Positions 5,641-18,825 of a DNA stretch of 64,000 nucleotides are shown here, in pieces (the stretch's first letter is position 1; every line of letters begins with the position of its first letter). Made by a program: the position numbers and the translations under genes. The stretch comes from Cutibacterium sp. (GTDB taxonomy: Bacteria; Actinomycetota; Actinomycetes; Propionibacteriales; Propionibacteriaceae): the NCBI RefSeq assembly GCF_030525615.1, contig NZ_JAUNEJ010000002.1, positions 1-64,000 of the forward strand, read 5' to 3'. The notes beneath the pieces were generated by a model. That model worked only from the letters and a program-made list of their open reading frames with translations. It was not told where the DNA came from and did no database searches.

Positions 5641-6233
5641 AGGAACATATAGCGCTGGGGTGGAGAGCCTGGGCGCGGAACCGATCGCTGGGGACTCTTT
5701 TTGCAATCACCGCCGTTTGTTGCATCCTCATTGCGTTTACATCAGACATCATGATTTCCCTTCCTCCACTGCTGTCATGGAAAGGCGTTGAAGTTTCCAA
5801 TGCTGCTGTGATACCGCTTTTGGTGGTCGTTGTACAAGGTTGGTGTCTCTCGCGTCGCGACCCAAGAGCAGAACTCGGGTCTGTACGTCGGATCGCATAC
5901 GCAGATTGCCTCCTATCCATGACGCCTGCGGTGCTTTTCGCAGTCTTATCCTGGTCGGCGAATCTTCCGCTAGGGATGATTTCAACTCGCAACATCATTG
6001 GATTGGCTGGACTCACCCTCCTTTCGCACGCCATCGGAATTAAGAAGTTGTCTGCTATCCCTGCAGTCACCTGGGTTCTAGCGAGCCTTTTGCTAGGACG
6101 AACGGAAAGCTATACAGCACGGTGGTCATGGCCAATCAAAGACCGAACGGACGCACTATCGGCAATCATGGCAGGGACTCTCTGTCTTCTCGGAATCTTC
6201 CTCTCGCTCGCCAGGGCACGTCGGGCGATGTAA
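5634..6233 (+). CDS. Second membrane protein of the ABC operon
   Basis: A 199-residue hydrophobic protein with about six predicted membrane segments and a basic cytoplasmic N-terminus (WRAWARNRS). The start lies inside the end of the preceding permease gene, so the three genes form a tightly coupled operon with ATPase, permease 1 and permease 2. It most likely forms the other half of the channel, giving a heteromeric transporter. No specific family recognised. Confidence 0.6.
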   Translation: MLKEHIALGWRAWARNRSLGTLFAITAVCCILIAFTSDIMISLPPLLSWKGVEVSNAAVIPLLVVVVQGWCLSRRDPRAELGSVRRIAYADCLLSMTPAVLFAVLSWSANLPLGMISTRNIIGLAGLTLLSHAIGIKKLSAIPAVTWVLASLLLGRTESYTARWSWPIKDRTDALSAIMAGTLCLLGIFLSLARARRAM

Positions 6234-6252: not shown

Positions 6253-8232
6253 ATGACGTCAATCTCGCTTTTCAGTGGCCTCGACCCGGAGACCCCCGCC
6301 TGCCAGGACTTCTACCGGCACGTGAACGGCACGTGGATCGCCCAAGCCGTCATCCCCGAAGACAGACCCGCCGACGGGCCGTTCTACCACCTCGATGACG
6401 AGTCCCGAAAAGCCGTCCACCAGATCCTTGAAGACCTGGCCTCCGGCAAGGGAGACGACATTCGCGAGGAAGCCACCGAGCACGAGGTGGAGGTCGCCGT
6501 GGAGCTCTACCGTCGCTATATGGATGTCGATGCTGTCGAGAAGGCCGGGGCCGAGCCGCTGCGTCCCCTTTTTGCCGAGATCGACGCCATCTCCAGCATC
6601 GCCGATCTCATGGCTTTCCTCGGCAAAGCCGCGAGACGTGGCATTTCTGGGCTTTTTGAGACCGAGGATGAATCCGACCCTGGCGACCCGACCCGCAAGC
6701 TGCTGTGGATCGGCCAGGGCGGCATCGGGCTTTCAGACGAGTCCTATTACCGAGACGAGGACAAGGCCAAGATTCGCGATGGCTATGTCCGTCACATTCA
6801 AGCCTCCTTCGAGCTGGCCGGTATTCCTGACGCCGCGCAGGCCGCTCGAACCGTCATGGACCTGGAGACCGAAATCGCCTCGCACCACTGGGACCGGGTC
6901 CGCTGCCGTGATCTGCAAGCCGCCTACAACCCCGTCACCTTCACCGATGTCGACAAAGCCCACCCTGGCCTCCACCTGGACACCTGGCGTAGCAACGCCA
7001 ATATCCCCATGAAGGTCGTTGCGACCCTCAATATCGCCCAACCGTCCTTCTTCGACGGCGTGGAGACCCTGCTGGCTGACGAGCGCATTGAGCAGTGGCG
7101 TATCTGGGCCACGTGGCAGGTCATTCGCTCCTACTCACAATTCCTCAGTTCTGACTTCGTGGAACGCAACTTTGACTTTTATGGCCGCACCCTTAACGGC
7201 ACTGTGACGCTGCGCCCGCGCTGGAAACGAGCTGTTGATTTCGTCCAGTCGGCCATGGGTGAAGCCATCGGCAAGATGTACGTCGCCCGTCACTTCCCGC
7301 CTGCCTCCAAACAGCGGATGGACGAGCTCGTCGCCAATATCCTGGCAGCCTATCGGGAGTCCATCAGCCAGCTGGAATGGATGGGTGAGGACACCCGCAA
7401 GGAGGCTTTGAAGAAACTCGCGAACTTCCGTCCGAAGATCGGGTACCCGGATTCTTGGCGTGACTTCTCCGGTCTACAGGTGGGTGAGGGCAACCTCGTC
7501 GACGCGGTACAGGACGTCTCCTCCTTCATCGTCGACTACACCATCGAGAAACTCGGTAAGCCGGTTGATCCGGACGAGTGGATGATGTTCCCGCAGACGG
7601 TTAACGCCTACTATCACCCGCTGCGCAACGAGATCGTTTTCCCGGCCGCAATCTTGCAGCCGCCATTTTTCGACCCGGACGTCGACGACGCCGTCAACTA
7701 CGGTGGGATCGGTACCGTCATCGGCCACGAAATCGGTCATGGTTTCGACGACCAGGGGTCCACCTGTGACGGCAAGGGCCTGCTGCGTGATTGGTGGACT
7801 GCCGAGGATCGTACCGCCTTCGAGGAGCGCACCAAGGGCCTTATCGCCCAATACAACGAGTTGATTCCTCTCCAGCTCGGCCCTGACGGCCCACACGTCA
7901 ATGGAGAACTGACGATCGGGGAGAACATCGGCGACCTTGGCGGAGCGGGAATCGCCTTCAAAGCCCTTCAGATCTCCTTCAACGGCAACGAACCTGAGCC
8001 GGTCGACGGCTTGACCTGGCAACAACGCTTCTTCCTGTCCTACGCGTCGATCTGGCGCGGCGTCATGCGGGATGAGGCTGCTCGTCGCCTGATCGTCATC
8101 GACCCGCACTCCCCCAACGAGTTCCGCTGCAACCAGATCGTCCGCAATATTGACGCATTCCATGACGCGTTTGGTATCACCGAGGACGACCCCATGTGGT
8201 TAGCTCCCGAGAAGCGAGTCACCATCTGGTGA
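6253..8232 (+). CDS. pepO: M13 family zinc metallopeptidase (PepO/neprilysin type)
   Basis: A 659-residue oligopeptidase. The zinc motif HEIGH is at residues 492-496, and the third ligand Glu557 lies in GENIGDLGG, the diagnostic M13 spacing. NAYYHP before the zinc site is the substrate-binding NAYY/F motif, and the protein ends in the typical VxIW tail. The N-terminal M13 domain begins at DPETPACQDFYRHVNG. There is no signal peptide or membrane anchor, so like bacterial PepO it is predicted to be cytoplasmic and to cut small peptides. It is preceded by GGGGTC near the ATG and is transcribed alone. A short inverted repeat (GTCACC/GGTGAC) covers the stop codon. Confidence 0.93.
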   Translation: MTSISLFSGLDPETPACQDFYRHVNGTWIAQAVIPEDRPADGPFYHLDDESRKAVHQILEDLASGKGDDIREEATEHEVEVAVELYRRYMDVDAVEKAGAEPLRPLFAEIDAISSIADLMAFLGKAARRGISGLFETEDESDPGDPTRKLLWIGQGGIGLSDESYYRDEDKAKIRDGYVRHIQASFELAGIPDAAQAARTVMDLETEIASHHWDRVRCRDLQAAYNPVTFTDVDKAHPGLHLDTWRSNANIPMKVVATLNIAQPSFFDGVETLLADERIEQWRIWATWQVIRSYSQFLSSDFVERNFDFYGRTLNGTVTLRPRWKRAVDFVQSAMGEAIGKMYVARHFPPASKQRMDELVANILAAYRESISQLEWMGEDTRKEALKKLANFRPKIGYPDSWRDFSGLQVGEGNLVDAVQDVSSFIVDYTIEKLGKPVDPDEWMMFPQTVNAYYHPLRNEIVFPAAILQPPFFDPDVDDAVNYGGIGTVIGHEIGHGFDDQGSTCDGKGLLRDWWTAEDRTAFEERTKGLIAQYNELIPLQLGPDGPHVNGELTIGENIGDLGGAGIAFKALQISFNGNEPEPVDGLTWQQRFFLSYASIWRGVMRDEAARRLIVIDPHSPNEFRCNQIVRNIDAFHDAFGITEDDPMWLAPEKRVTIW

Positions 8233-8385
8233 CGGTCTTACAAGGCAGTTTGCACCACACCACATCGCTACCAGACTCTCGTGAGCTTAATTGTATGAGG
8301 AGCACTCCGGACGAACGTTGCACAACGTTTTTCTGCAACTCGTGACAGCCGGTACGTGGCTCTCCCCGGCGCAGTGGTCGTGATA

Positions 8386-8417
8386 AGACGGTGGAAACTG
8401 ACGACCTTCCACCGTCT
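8386..8417. repeat. Perfect inverted repeat, 11-bp arms
   Basis: The arm AGACGGTGGAA at 8386-8396 is the exact reverse complement of TTCCACCGTCT at 8407-8417, with a 10-base loop. There is no T-run on either side, so it is not a standard terminator. It could be a protein-binding site or an RNA hairpin in the adhesin leader or the pepO 3' end. Confidence 0.55.
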
Positions 8418-8685
8418 GACCGGCCTCGGCTTGCAGGTAGCGGCAGCCTTGGTGCCGACACGCACGTCCAAACCGACTATGCGATCCGCCTTGCACCCGT
8501 GCGCCCAGGAGAAACTGCGGCGACAGCCCGCTCGGCAAAAATAAACGATCACGACAGCCATAATCGTAGCACTTTTAGAGAACACAGCCAGATATAATTG
8601 CGACTTGCTCAAAATGCCTCGCGTACATAACAGCTTTACGTCATTCGCACCCGCCATACGCGCATTGCGCCAGCTTCAATAACTA

Positions 8686-8694
8686 CCCCCCCCC
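8686..8694. promoter_or_regulatory. Poly-C tract (9 C), candidate phase-variation site
   Basis: Nine consecutive C residues lie 108 bp before the start codon of the LPXTG adhesin. Homopolymer tracts of this kind are prone to slipped-strand length changes. In a promoter or leader this can alter spacing and expression. Such G/C tracts near surface-protein genes are described in Cutibacterium acnes. The effect here is inference. Confidence 0.5.
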
Positions 8695-8802
8695 GAGCCT
8701 CCCCGAAACGCGTCACCTAAGCTATGCGAACGAAAGGAAGAATCACGGTCCAACCGGACCCAATACCCGAGACCACTCCAGAGACATCAGGCGGTACTTA
8801 CT

Positions 8803-11800
8803 ATGGGTTCTAAGGGTGACTTTTTTAGAGCATCCAACATAAAGATAAGACACTATGGAGGGGGTGAAAACTCCCGAAAGATACATCCCGCACGTGGCAT
8901 AGCTGCCATTGCAGCACTCACATTGACATTCAGTTCCGGCATATACGGTATTTCTCAAATCGCGTACGCCGATGTGACGATTACGTCTTCCAGCGACTCG
9001 TGGAAAGCAGCCGCTGATGGCAATCCTGCGACTAATCTAAAAGACGACAAAGTGGCACCTGTTGAGGGTGTAACCAAAGGCACAATACAAAATGACTATG
9101 TGCCGAAAGCTAACACGGCGGTTGCTGAGGTGAAGTGGGACTCATCGAATGTCAAAACTGATCCGAACCCGTTCCAATTCGACATCGCCGTTCTCGTTTC
9201 TCAAGCCTTTGGCAATGGCGATCCAACAGCGAAGATCGACGGCTGGCAGAATGGTCATACCTTCGATACCGGAGACATTCCTGGACTGTTTGACGGTATT
9301 AAGTTCCGCTACGAGTTCGAAAACAGCCAGGCTACCTACTACTACGAAGGTGTCGACTACACCAAGATGTCGCCGCTGGCTACTGGTGTATCGGAACCCA
9401 CCGTCACCATGGGTGATCTTGGGACATGGAGCTTACCGACCACGCTTCAACGGAGTAGCGACCCCCTGTCGCCCGGAATGGAGATCGAGTTTACCTCGAC
9501 GTTCACCCCCAAGGCTGACTACATCGGCCCCACTCCGCCGCTCCCGCTGAATGTCACTGCTAATAAAAAAACCAGTATTATTTCCTTGGCGACAAAAGCA
9601 GCAGAGAAAGCTTACCCTAGTACCTACCATTCCGAGGGTTATCTCGGTGCGGACCAGCAGAATCCAACCAAAGGACCATCGCTGTTTCGACTGCAAAAAA
9701 ATAACGGATCTACCGTCACTTTAAACTATAAGTACGGTATTACGGACCCGAGCGGCGATCCAGACGCAACAGCTGTCCAAGAGCTGAAGAAGGACCATGG
9801 CACCTACAAGATAAATCAGGATACCGGCCAGGTCACCTTTACTCCAGACAAAGACTTCCCCCAAGACAGTTACGGCCAACAGCTGGAAGGCGTACGCATC
9901 GTCAACACAGCGTCAATGGCGCAAGATATCTCTGACGGGGAAATGGGATTTACCCCAGAAATCGAGGCCTACAAGCTTCCGGAAAAAGATGCGCGGCGCA
10001 GTTGGGTAGAGGCATTCTACAAACCCACAGTGAAGGCATTGCATCCTGAGGTGCCCAACCTTGAAGCGTTTGGCAAAATGGGTGGCCCCATCACTCAGAT
10101 CCCTAACCTTTCCCAAGATGGCGGGGACCCAGCGATTGATGTCAGCACTCTCAGCTTCGTGGATGGTGAGAACTCTGAGTACCCCGCGACCCCCGTCACC
10201 ACGAAGAAAGTGGCTGGGGAAGGAACCTGGACGATCGATTCCCGAACAGGTGCCATTACGTTCACCCCAGATAAGGGTTTTGCAGGGCATCCCACGCCGG
10301 TGTGGTACAAAGCCAAAAATGAAGCTGGCGTCGTCACCACAGACGATGGCGATGATGATGACGCCAAATATGGCACCGGAAAGGTGACCTACACCTATTC
10401 TGACGCGTCAGGATTGTATGCGAACACCACAGGCCCCCAAGGGAAGCCGCAGAGTTCGTTCGACAAAGACGCCGATGATGCCGGTTTCGCTAACACAAAG
10501 GCGATGTTCCGCAATATCCCAGACGACTGGTACGGTGGTTTCACCTACAAGCTCCGAGGCGCAGATAAGCAGGGCAAAGTCGTTGTCGACGGCCAGGGAA
10601 CATACACCATTGACCCCAAAACCGGCAAAGTGACGTTCACCCCTGAAGCGACTTTCTATGGAACCGCGAAGAGCGTATATATCGAAATTGCTTCTGGGTA
10701 CACCAACAAAAATAATCAAACCGGTTCTCCCATCGCCATCTATACACCGACCGTGACCAAATCTTCTGTGGTCGTGCGCCCTGAGTTTGCAGCTGGCGCT
10801 TTGGGGAAAGCGATACATTTGACCCCTGATTATGACCAGCCGGACGGTTTGGAGGCGCTGGATATCACGTCGGTCACCTTCTTGAATGACGACGGTTCCC
10901 TGCCGACACAGCCTCTCAAGAAACGTGAAGTCAAGGGGCAAGGCACGTGGACCATTGACGACACCGGTACGTTCACCTTTACGCCCGTTCCGGGATTTGC
11001 TGGAGATCCCGACCCGCAGCTGTACACCGCCAAGAACAAGAGCGGCACCTATGCCTCGGCTGCTGAGGTGGGAGTAGTTTACGGTGGCTTGGTGGCCGTT
11101 CCCTCTACTACGGTTGGCCCTCAAAACACGGTCCAGCACTCGGATGATTCCGGTGCTTCCGACAACGGTGCAACTCGCGATGAGATGTTCCCAGATCTCG
11201 ATCCGGCATGGTTTACGAACAACGGCGGGCCGCTCCAGGTTAAGCTGCTCGACGCCCAAGGTAAACCTACTGATTCAGTGACGGTGGACAAGCAAGGTAC
11301 CTACACGATTGATACCAAGACGGGTCGCGTCACCTTTACGCCGGAATCCAACTATTACGGCAAGGCAAATCCGGTGACTCTTTCCGTCACTGGTTTGAAA
11401 GATGAAAACGGTAAAGAGGTCTCGGTAACCACCACCTATACACCCTTCATCACCAAAGATGGCGGCGTATTGCCTAACGCGTTCCATCAGGCGAAGAAGG
11501 TGGGCGATCCGGATTCCGTTACGCCCAGCTATCAGGATAACGGCTACAATATTGACCCCGCGTCTGCAACCTTCCCAGATGGCAGTCGTACCAAGAAGGT
11601 GGCTGGTGAAGGAACGTGGGAGATTAACCCACAAACGGGTGAGTTTACCTTTACCCCAGAGGTTGGATTCAACCAATCACCCACACCGGTGTCATACGAT
11701 GGTAAGAACAAGGAGACAGGCCTGACAGTCACAGGCGGACAAGTGACGATTGCCTATCCGCAACCGACCGCTATTCCTGCCACCACCTCGGCTGAGCAAG

Positions 11801-14241
11801 GTCTTACTCAGTACTCCACCGATGACGACACGCAAGACGCGGGTCTCGAGCCGCACGAAATGTTCCCCACCGTGCCAGATAAGTGGTATGGCAAGGCAGA
11901 TTCACCGGTGAAGTTCTATCTTCTGGATGGAGACAAACAGGTAGAAACTCTTACTGTGCGTGGCCACGACCAAGATGGCAACGAAATGGAGGCCGGTACC
12001 TATACGATCGATCCCGTATCGGGTATTGTGACTTTCAAGCCAAATCCAGAGTTCTTGGGTACAGCCCCCACTGCTGTTATTACCACAGATGGTCTCAGCT
12101 CTGAGTTGCGCACCCAGTACACGCCATTCTATTTCCCGGCACGCATAGAGCTGCCAAGCGATCGCCAGGTTCAAGATACGCTCGGCGCACCCACCTCATC
12201 GAAGTTTGAGCTCGATGAGTGGAAGACGGAACACTTCACGGTTGACAAAGAAAGCGTGAAGCTTCTGCCAAGCACGAAGACGATCCTGCAGAATGGCAAA
12301 GAAACACCGGTACCAGGAACCGTCTCCGCAGATGGCAAGACGCTCACCGTGCCCGGTGAAGGTACATGGAGAGTAGAGCTGAAAGGCCAAGCTCCGGCCG
12401 CAGGTACTGAGGATACCCGCGAGGTGGTGTTCACATTCACACCGGAGAAAGGCTTCGTGGGGCAGCCCACCGAGCTGAACTATCTGGCGAAGAACAGCAA
12501 CGGTATTGAGGCGAGTATTCCCGGACAGGTTGTGTTTGTGTACCCGAGTGTGGCTACTCAAGACGCTCTAACTACCTCTACACAGGGTGCGGTGCAAAAA
12601 TCATCCGATAAGGATGCGGGAGATTACGGCTTGAGTATTGAGGAAATGTTCCCGAACATCTCCAAGGTTCCTCAAGAATGGAAGCTCGGATTTGAACTCG
12701 ATGGCGCTAAAGACGGCACATTGACGGTGGCTGGCGAAGGAACATACGTTATTGACCCAGCTACCGGTGAGGTGACGTTTACCCCTGAACCTGAATTCGT
12801 GGGCACGGCAAAACCGGTAACGGTGTGGGCAACCTTCGATGGCAAGCGCAGCGATGTCAGTGCCACGTACACTCCCGTGGTGCAAACCTTTGGTACGCCA
12901 AGCTACAAGCAAATTGTGGTTGAGACAGGTGCTACCCAAAAGTCCACCGTCACTGTTCCCAAAGACGCACCTGCGGGGGGCGTGACCTACGCAATTGATG
13001 CGGACTGGCTTAAAAACGAGGCTCCTGAAGGCTGGACGATTACGATCGACAAGGCTACCGGTGAAGTGACTGCTGTCGCGCCGAAAGACGCCGAGAAGAT
13101 GATCGCTTTCGAAGTACCGGTAACGGCTACTTATCAAGGCGGGGCTCAGCGTACTACCAAGGCACCATTTAGCCCGCTCTCCGACACACAGTTTATCGAC
13201 TACAATGTGGAGATCGAATACGATGACACGTTACCTCCAGGCTCTATTGAGACCGATCAAGACGGCGAGATCGGGGAAAAGGTAAAAGTTGATGGCAAGT
13301 GGCAGATAACAAAAGAACCCAAGCCACATAAGATTCGGGTCTCTTCGCAGATCACACCAGGAGATCAAGAATATAGTTGGACGAAGCCCATTCCGTATGA
13401 GGCTGAATACCGCTACAACCCGGATCTCAAACCAGGCGAGGTCAGAGTAGTTCAAAAGGGTCAGCCCGGCGAGGAAGCCTATAACGTCACCATAACTGTT
13501 GACGAGCATGGCAAGATTTCACTTTCTGAGCCTGAGCATAAAACTACACGGCAAGCCGTCAAGGAGATTTTTGAGGTCGGCCCCGATGTTGAATCGACCA
13601 AACAATCTACCAAGCGTCTCGACATTCCTTACTCCACGAAGATCATCTTTGATCCGGCTCTTCGCCCTGGCCAAATAGTGGTCGACCAAGAAGGTCAGGA
13701 TGGCTTGCGTGAGGTAAGCACGAGCGTCACATACAAAGACGGCACTTTAAGTGATCCCGACATCACCGAAAAGGTACTCAAAGAACCTGTGGAACGCATT
13801 GTACGTGTGGGCGGTGAGCGTCCGCTAAACGATGAAGTGAAGGTCGAAGCTTTCACCACTCGTTTTGTGTACGATGAAAGCCTTGACCCAGGCGAAACCC
13901 GCATCGATCAGCAGGGTAAAGATACCGTGATGCAGTTCGTGGGCAACAAAGACGGTGGCGGCAAATGGGTAACCCTCGTCAAAGGGAACGATCAGGTTGT
14001 ACGCGTGGGCACTAAGGAAAAGCCGTGCATATGCGATCACCCTGGCAGCTCCGATACGCACGATGGCGGCGTTCCTGCCGGTAGGACAAATCCTGCCGGA
14101 AACGCGGGTTCTGGCAGTTCAGATGTACCTCAAGCATTGCCACGTACAGGTTCCAGTCAAGCACGCGGGTTCGGCATATTTGCAGTCTCGCTTATTGGGC
14201 TAGGAGGATTGCTCATGCTATGGCACCGCAAGGATGCCTGA
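8803..14241 (+). CDS. Very large LPXTG-anchored fibrillar adhesin (CshA-type repeats, Rib-like and G5 domains)
   Basis: An 1812-residue surface protein. The signal peptide has a long N-region and ends near YA/D (cleavage after about Ala56). A unique N-terminal region of about 270 residues follows. From about 330 to 1345 come nine CshA-type fibril repeats of the form GTYTID..TG.VTFTP, alternating between a GTW..GF.G.P..Y.AKN form and a GTY..F.GTA form. A Rib/YPDG-like domain lies at about 1365-1456 (GWTITIDKATGEV). Four G5-type domains follow at about 1460-1740 (motifs such as LKPGEV, then QPGE). LPRTG is at 1779-1783, then a hydrophobic stretch and WHRKDA tail for sortase anchoring. It is expected to form a stalk on the cell wall for adhesion or biofilm. 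The ribosome binding site is modest (AGGCGG). The mRNA ends at a strong terminator, so it is monocistronic. Confidence 0.92.
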   Translation: MGSKGDFFRASNIKIRHYGGGENSRKIHPARGIAAIAALTLTFSSGIYGISQIAYADVTITSSSDSWKAAADGNPATNLKDDKVAPVEGVTKGTIQNDYVPKANTAVAEVKWDSSNVKTDPNPFQFDIAVLVSQAFGNGDPTAKIDGWQNGHTFDTGDIPGLFDGIKFRYEFENSQATYYYEGVDYTKMSPLATGVSEPTVTMGDLGTWSLPTTLQRSSDPLSPGMEIEFTSTFTPKADYIGPTPPLPLNVTANKKTSIISLATKAAEKAYPSTYHSEGYLGADQQNPTKGPSLFRLQKNNGSTVTLNYKYGITDPSGDPDATAVQELKKDHGTYKINQDTGQVTFTPDKDFPQDSYGQQLEGVRIVNTASMAQDISDGEMGFTPEIEAYKLPEKDARRSWVEAFYKPTVKALHPEVPNLEAFGKMGGPITQIPNLSQDGGDPAIDVSTLSFVDGENSEYPATPVTTKKVAGEGTWTIDSRTGAITFTPDKGFAGHPTPVWYKAKNEAGVVTTDDGDDDDAKYGTGKVTYTYSDASGLYANTTGPQGKPQSSFDKDADDAGFANTKAMFRNIPDDWYGGFTYKLRGADKQGKVVVDGQGTYTIDPKTGKVTFTPEATFYGTAKSVYIEIASGYTNKNNQTGSPIAIYTPTVTKSSVVVRPEFAAGALGKAIHLTPDYDQPDGLEALDITSVTFLNDDGSLPTQPLKKREVKGQGTWTIDDTGTFTFTPVPGFAGDPDPQLYTAKNKSGTYASAAEVGVVYGGLVAVPSTTVGPQNTVQHSDDSGASDNGATRDEMFPDLDPAWFTNNGGPLQVKLLDAQGKPTDSVTVDKQGTYTIDTKTGRVTFTPESNYYGKANPVTLSVTGLKDENGKEVSVTTTYTPFITKDGGVLPNAFHQAKKVGDPDSVTPSYQDNGYNIDPASATFPDGSRTKKVAGEGTWEINPQTGEFTFTPEVGFNQSPTPVSYDGKNKETGLTVTGGQVTIAYPQPTAIPATTSAEQGLTQYSTDDDTQDAGLEPHEMFPTVPDKWYGKADSPVKFYLLDGDKQVETLTVRGHDQDGNEMEAGTYTIDPVSGIVTFKPNPEFLGTAPTAVITTDGLSSELRTQYTPFYFPARIELPSDRQVQDTLGAPTSSKFELDEWKTEHFTVDKESVKLLPSTKTILQNGKETPVPGTVSADGKTLTVPGEGTWRVELKGQAPAAGTEDTREVVFTFTPEKGFVGQPTELNYLAKNSNGIEASIPGQVVFVYPSVATQDALTTSTQGAVQKSSDKDAGDYGLSIEEMFPNISKVPQEWKLGFELDGAKDGTLTVAGEGTYVIDPATGEVTFTPEPEFVGTAKPVTVWATFDGKRSDVSATYTPVVQTFGTPSYKQIVVETGATQKSTVTVPKDAPAGGVTYAIDADWLKNEAPEGWTITIDKATGEVTAVAPKDAEKMIAFEVPVTATYQGGAQRTTKAPFSPLSDTQFIDYNVEIEYDDTLPPGSIETDQDGEIGEKVKVDGKWQITKEPKPHKIRVSSQITPGDQEYSWTKPIPYEAEYRYNPDLKPGEVRVVQKGQPGEEAYNVTITVDEHGKISLSEPEHKTTRQAVKEIFEVGPDVESTKQSTKRLDIPYSTKIIFDPALRPGQIVVDQEGQDGLREVSTSVTYKDGTLSDPDITEKVLKEPVERIVRVGGERPLNDEVKVEAFTTRFVYDESLDPGETRIDQQGKDTVMQFVGNKDGGGKWVTLVKGNDQVVRVGTKEKPCICDHPGSSDTHDGGVPAGRTNPAGNAGSGSSDVPQALPRTGSSQARGFGIFAVSLIGLGGLLMLWHRKDA

Positions 14242-14303
14242 CATACATTCCCAGGGAATAATCAGGCATGAGGTAAAGGCATAACCTCACTTAATGTCTG
14301 TTG

Positions 14304-14355
14304 ACGGTGGCCGGAAGTTTGCATCGACATGCATTCTCCCGGCCACCGTTTCTTG
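14304..14355 (+). terminator. Rho-independent terminator of the adhesin gene
   Basis: ACGGTGGCCGG at 14304-14314 pairs perfectly with CCGGCCACCGT at 14339-14349, and TTTCTTGTT follows. The loop contains a small inner dyad (GCAT...ATGC). Confidence 0.8.
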
Positions 14356-14595
14356 TTGCTCATCGCAAACGATGGGCGTAGATGGGGCGTGAATCAGTCG
14401 GTTTCCGGCAGCGACCCTGACGTCATGCGCAGCTACACCTGTAGCCGGTCGGCACAACCTCAACCACTACCTCAACGCCGCCACGCCATCAACAACCCAC
14501 CCGCTCAACTGCGAAGGCTCGGTTAACCCCTCACTTTCAAAAATCGGATTATTTTGCGAATAATGAACTATTCCTATTCTTTTTTAGCACCGAAT

Positions 14596-14625
14596 ATGAC
14601 CCTCACGTAGGTTACGGTGTAAACG
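14596..14625 (+). promoter_or_regulatory. Possible promoter of the peptide-ABC cassette
   Basis: ATGACC (14596-14601) and TAAACG (14620-14625) are separated by 18 bases that contain an imperfect dyad, CCTCACGT against ACGGTG. Long spacers with a dyad between the boxes are typical of MerR-family regulated promoters. Neither box is a strong match, so this is tentative. Confidence 0.25.
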
Positions 14626-14674
14626 TCCGTGGCCACGGCAGCACCTGATAATCCGTTTTCACATAAGGAAAGAG

Positions 14675-18258: not shown

Positions 18259-18825
18259 TCACGACGACCACGGAAACCCCGGCTGCTGCTTGGCTCTCAT
18301 CAGGTCGAACCCGATCAATGCGCCAATAATCGCAGCGCGATACTCAGGCGCGGCACCCGGTGTAAAACTCAGCGCGTAAAGATCCCGTTCGATGAACATG
18401 TCCATCACCGAGCCGAAATGCCGCGACGCGGTAGCGAGACCGCCGGCCTCTCCTGCAACCGTGAAGTCTCGCTCCCACAGGTTCCCACGCAGCACCAAGC
18501 TCTCCCCCGAGGCCATGTGTATCGAAACCTTGGGCTTGAATAACGTGATTTCCTGAACCAGCTCGGCGATCTCGGAGCCGTCGGGGCCAACAATCGACAT
18601 TCGGTCGCGTCCCATAGTGACACGATCCACAACCTTGAGCACCAAAGCGCCGTCCAACTCGCAGACATCGAGTTCCCGATTACCCATCACCAGGCGTTTG
18701 AGCAGGTGCCCTACGGTCTTGACCTGTCCTACTGGCTGCCCGTCCGGCCCGAGTATCGAAAAATCGTTGGCAAGGACGGACGCCACCTGCCGCATCAAGA
18801 GTGTGTCGTAGGTAAGCAGCCCCAT
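18259..18825 (-). CDS. LURP-one-related / scramblase-like protein
   Basis: A 188-residue soluble protein whose pattern of short beta strands with FSILGPDGQPVGQV, MSIVGPDGSEIAEL and VAGEAGGLATASR fits the LURP-one-related (tubby-like barrel) family. Bacterial members have no established biochemical role. It ends with a single hydrophobic helix (AAIIGALIGFDLM), common in the family. It is convergent with the preceding cassette and is not in an obvious operon. Confidence 0.7.
   Translation of the reverse strand: MGLLTYDTLLMRQVASVLANDFSILGPDGQPVGQVKTVGHLLKRLVMGNRELDVCELDGALVLKVVDRVTMGRDRMSIVGPDGSEIAELVQEITLFKPKVSIHMASGESLVLRGNLWERDFTVAGEAGGLATASRHFGSVMDMFIERDLYALSFTPGAAPEYRAAIIGALIGFDLMRAKQQPGFPWSS

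Follow-up and report, generated by a model that had tools for sequence, protein, structure and literature searches.

A run of nine Cs (C9) at 8686-8694 on the + strand of the window, by which we mean the whole 64-kb stretch of DNA analysed, may be a simple-sequence contingency tract: it lies in noncoding DNA 5' of a fibrillar adhesin gene, itself probably gained by horizontal transfer, and slippage would alter the output of that gene. On the sequence, we give this reading about an even chance. Slippage would alter the length of C9 by one or two bases, the altered length would change promoter geometry or the leader RNA and thereby adhesin output, and the outcome would be graded differences in adhesin, not a coding on/off switch. 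We infer that the length of C9 is variable and that length is consequential for the adhesin. C9 is a tract of a known kind, and such tracts are already known in C. acnes. The most interesting part of the finding is that the adhesin's relatives carry a different tract.

C9 and the adhesin gene

The first-pass annotation of this DNA had described a nine-C homopolymer in a 570-bp leader, 108 bp before the start codon of a giant LPXTG adhesin, and the sequence bears this out in each respect. The nine Cs lie on the adhesin's sense strand, 108 nt separate the tract from the adhesin ATG at 8803, and the 570-bp leader runs from the stop codon of an M13 peptidase gene (8232) to that ATG. A Shine-Dalgarno-like AGGCGG (8789-8794, + strand) can be read 8 nt before the ATG. 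The gene (8803-14241, + strand) is a 1812-aa ORF encoding a CshA-type fibrillar LPXTG adhesin. Its CshA repeats are matched by Pfam (E 4e-94) and by NCBIfam TIGR04225 (E 1.5e-102), with the curated cut-off passed, and Pfam also finds two G5 stretches and a long Rib domain. By inspection, an N-terminal signal peptide is present and the C-terminus carries an LPRTG sorting signal, a hydrophobic stretch and an RKDA tail.

The leader, the adhesin gene and the downstream spacer together form an inserted segment (8233-14653, + strand) with no DNA counterpart in three aligned relatives. The flanks of all three align up to 8232; alignment restarts at 14654 or 14661 in two of them and at 18285 in the third. 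Across the genus, the DNA that separates the M13 peptidase gene from the ABC transporter genes varies, and in one genome (G002) some 2.75 kb of different sequence occupies this place.

The adhesin was probably horizontally acquired. Among nine genus genomes a full-length match was found only in the genome that holds the window, and six others match in the G5 region only. None of the other 197 genomes of the family has a full-length match (1 of 198 at E 1e-60, the window's own genome). None of five candidate stretches in viral contigs was confirmed as a relative, and plasmids gave two partial matches only, at 27.5% identity. A DNA search of the nine genus genomes with leader plus signal peptide found no second copy (1 of 9, the own genome) and only short matches in the other eight (best E 0.02). 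Capture of a native promoter of the genus was considered and rejected on this search.

Long C and G tracts in the genus

C9 is the sole C or G run of at least 7 in the window. An order-1 Markov model of the whole 64 kb expects 1.13 C or G runs of at least 9, so a run of this length is not by itself improbable; the improbable part is its position, C9 being present in only 0.5% of 4000 leaders simulated from an order-1 Markov model of the leader.

Exact pattern counts in the nine genus genomes gave 200 C or G runs of 7, 26 of 8 and 31 of at least 9; extrapolating the fall between lengths 7 and 8 gives an expectation of 3.9 for the longest class. Of the 31, four lie at contig ends, each of them in G006, and 27 are left when these are removed. 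Part of the excess could be attributable to mixed decay rates in coding and noncoding DNA. Runs of at least 9 are a separate excess class of tract in the genus. They range from 9 to 17 bases, with C9 at the short end, a point against a switch at C9. The window's own genome has 23 runs of 7, two of 8 and six of at least 9. C9 is a homopolymer longer than run-length decay predicts, one of the marks of a contingency locus.

All six long tracts of the own genome are near the start of a gene: three are coding and fall within roughly the first 40 codons, and the others lie 78, 108 and 164 nt upstream. These distances come from a crude gene caller, and their detailed use is limited to these six tracts; for the remaining 25 of the 31, gene positions were judged by eye, some tracts being without an assignable gene. 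The three coding tracts lie within the signal peptide of a solute-binding lipoprotein, in frame (L106), directly after the lipobox of another solute-binding lipoprotein (L107) and near the start of a FucP-like permease (L108). The upstream tracts precede a 229-aa protein without family match (L109, 78 nt), the adhesin (C9 at 8686-8694, entered as L110, 108 nt) and a secreted protein without family match (L111, 164 nt). C9 looks like a contingency locus because runs of at least 9 are in excess in the genus and the own genome's six are near gene starts.

L109 (2001-2011) is a clear promoter-spacer tract, reading TTGACA, 9 nt, G11 and TACCTT, and serves as a positive control from the own genome. 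Its counterpart in G001 (L085, 2001-2014) reads TGGACA, 8 nt, G14, A and TACCTT, so that a poly-G between -35 and -10 (11 versus 14) before a gene for the same protein of about 229 aa is kept across two species. Another TTGACA-poly-G promoter tract, of 14 in G001 (L086), breaks the G006 assembly, where contigs end with 15 and 17 bases of a tract of this type; the two ends (L100 and L113), which are among the four contig-end runs of G006, were judged to be halves of one tract because they match opposite sides of L086. Homopolymers also recur in signal-peptide codons of secreted proteins in the genus. In G005, the signal-peptide codons of two secreted proteins (L096 and L098) contain C12 and C13, with the remainder out of frame, and the L106 tract is in frame.

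How C9 could act

The first-pass annotation had proposed that slippage of the tract could make the adhesin vary in expression between cells. The run-length excess of such tracts speaks for this, as does a one-base, frame-changing homopolymer difference in the adhesin's relatives (see below); against it stand the lack of a recognisable -35/-10 spacer at C9 and the lack of translation from a standard start through C9.

A frameshift switch of the type seen at C. acnes DsA1 was rejected when all three frames were read upstream from C9, as no ATG, GTG or TTG follows the last stop in any of them. Slippage at C9 therefore cannot alter translation of the adhesin if this begins at a standard start codon. 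In favour of such a switch, the reading frame of the adhesin is open from 8683, immediately ahead of C9; against it, no upstream ATG, GTG or TTG exists in any frame open through the tract, and a good ribosome site precedes the ATG at 8803. We regard such a switch as highly improbable.

A promoter-spacer switch of the PPA1880 type was likewise rejected, because no -35/-10 elements flank C9, whereas L109 in the own genome has exactly this arrangement. No -35/-10 pair of the sigma-70 type was found in 8200-9000. Between 8233 and 8880 there are only three TANNNT hexamers (TATAAT at 8593, TAAGCT at 8718 and TACTAT at 8799), and a fair -35 match is absent for all three. TATAAT (8593-8598, + strand) is a candidate -10 and the sole TATAAT on the + strand of the window, and its chance of occurring in such a leader is P=0.037 under an order-1 Markov model. 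If it is the -10, C9 would lie in the 5' UTR, some 80 nt from the transcription start and immediately behind a 22-codon ORF. TAAGCT (8718-8723, + strand) is a weaker candidate, and its use as -10 would place C9 just upstream of the -35 position. In the Bordetella fim promoters poly-C lies near the -35, and C9 would have the same geometry if TAAGCT is the -10.

A distinctive fold of the leader RNA was also rejected, since shuffled sequences fold as strongly (z +0.71); the minimum-energy fold of the leader pairs the nine Cs with a run of five Gs in the coding start. A single Rfam match, below gathering score, was taken as chance.

Relatives of the adhesin in Coriobacteriia

A contig scan gave 19 matching stretches, which led to two relatives of the adhesin, L021 and L022, both in Coriobacteriia MAGs (titled Atopobiaceae and Coriobacteriaceae). 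They are the sole close relatives found, with 75-76% identity to the adhesin over most of the protein, and are 93% identical to each other over 5.6 kb. In overlapping genome samples of their group, a relative was present in 1 of 140, 1 of 65 and 2 of 396 genomes, these being L021 and L022 only.

Both carry poly-G in their signal-peptide codons. In L021 the tract is G9 (6084-6092), in frame, and the ORF is open for 1784 aa. In L022 it is G8 (5980-5987), and the frame of the ATG stops after 24 codons; the mature frame is open for 1751 codons from the signal-peptide junction, with no ATG, GTG or TTG before 6340. The pair shows the pattern of a frame switch caught in two states, although both sequences are metagenome assemblies and may contain an assembly error. 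At the signal-peptide site of this poly-G, no homopolymer is present in the window's adhesin.

One adhesin may have spread horizontally, with its switch in a different place in each host: in Coriobacteriia a coding, frame-changing poly-G with an all-or-none effect, and in this genus a noncoding leader poly-C with a graded one. The switch would then have been replaced, not inherited. We hold this tentatively and think it somewhat improbable; were it so, variability of the adhesin itself would be the conserved trait.

Alternative explanations

C9 might instead be a passenger, a chance run in a C-rich, noncoding and foreign leader with no regulatory role, and we take this to be a serious if doubtful possibility. 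Order-1 models do expect about one C or G run of at least 9 per 64 kb, such runs are tolerated in noncoding DNA and removed from coding DNA, and neither promoter nor RNA structure is tied to C9. It is less easily reconciled with the rarity of C9 among simulated leaders, with runs of at least 9 being a distinct excess in the genus and with the placement of the own genome's six at gene starts.

Leader control of the Rho type would also give C9 a role. Transcription would start near 8605 from the TATAAT at 8593, a 22-codon leader peptide would be made, Rho would bind a C-rich stretch, and the length of C9 would tune premature termination. A 22-codon ORF is indeed present (8614-8682, + strand), ending 3 nt before C9, but short ORFs are frequent by chance and this one may be no exception. 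The C-rich, G-poor stretch that includes C9 (8641-8718, + strand), a possible Rho-binding leader, has an excess of C over G of 25 in 78 nt, a value that 0.3% of positions in the window reach; with C9 left out, the excess falls to 16, which 2.7% of positions reach. Each element is a weak pattern, and we consider this explanation unlikely. Hardly to be expected is a promoter-spacer switch on the minus strand, where the tract reads as G9-TAGTTATTG and would face a 129-aa ORF at 8268-8657. The G run is followed directly by TA, like the arrangement at L109, but by eye no -35 stands at a usable distance, and the ORF has neither a Pfam nor an NCBIfam match and only weak codon-position bias. The contingency tract in the noncoding leader is our best explanation, at the even chance given above.

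Implications

If C9 is a contingency tract of the adhesin, the known range of such tracts would grow beyond C. acnes to take in a relative, as well as a very large, foreign adhesin. The adhesin and its Coriobacteriia relatives would make a natural pair in which slippage switches of the coding and the noncoding kind could be compared on one surface protein. A warning on surface antigens would also follow: a single genome sequence may miss the expressed state.

Comparison with known systems

A search of the literature by titles and abstracts found no paper on this adhesin or on a tract in it. That surface-protein genes of the C. acnes group have such tracts, as the first-pass annotation had stated, is upheld for C. 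acnes itself by four papers, which describe homopolymers upstream of or within surface genes and tract-dependent promoter spacing (PMC3224659, PMC4746626, PMC6560440, PMC3772855). The literature on C. acnes also counts 54 tracts, two thirds of them upstream of genes; tract lengths there mostly follow clades, which speaks against a switch. A review describes tract changes in C. acnes as uncommon and the tracts as relatively stable, which argues against fast switching from cell to cell (PMC6560440).

C9 resembles the tract of C. acnes PPA1880 in being a homopolymer upstream of a surface-protein gene. Three strains carry 11, 13 and 15 Gs in the PPA1880 promoter, and secretion was seen in one of them (PMC3224659). 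Unlike this poly-G, which lies in the spacer of a putative promoter, C9 has no flanking -35/-10 and has C on the sense strand (PMC3224659). Like C9, the tract of DsA1/PPA2127 is a poly-C found at the 5' end of the gene for an adhesin, but it is inside the ORF and shifts the frame, whereas C9 is noncoding (PMC3224659, PMC6560440, PMC3772855). C9 also resembles HPT_26 and HPT_37 of C. acnes, which are likewise intergenic C tracts upstream of a gene and are tied to expression differences between strains; mapped transcription starts put them in the -10 or the spacer, whereas C9 is placed by sequence (PMC4746626). Outside this group, the Bordetella fim promoters have a poly-C upstream of an adhesin start codon, as C9 is here (PMC12952627).
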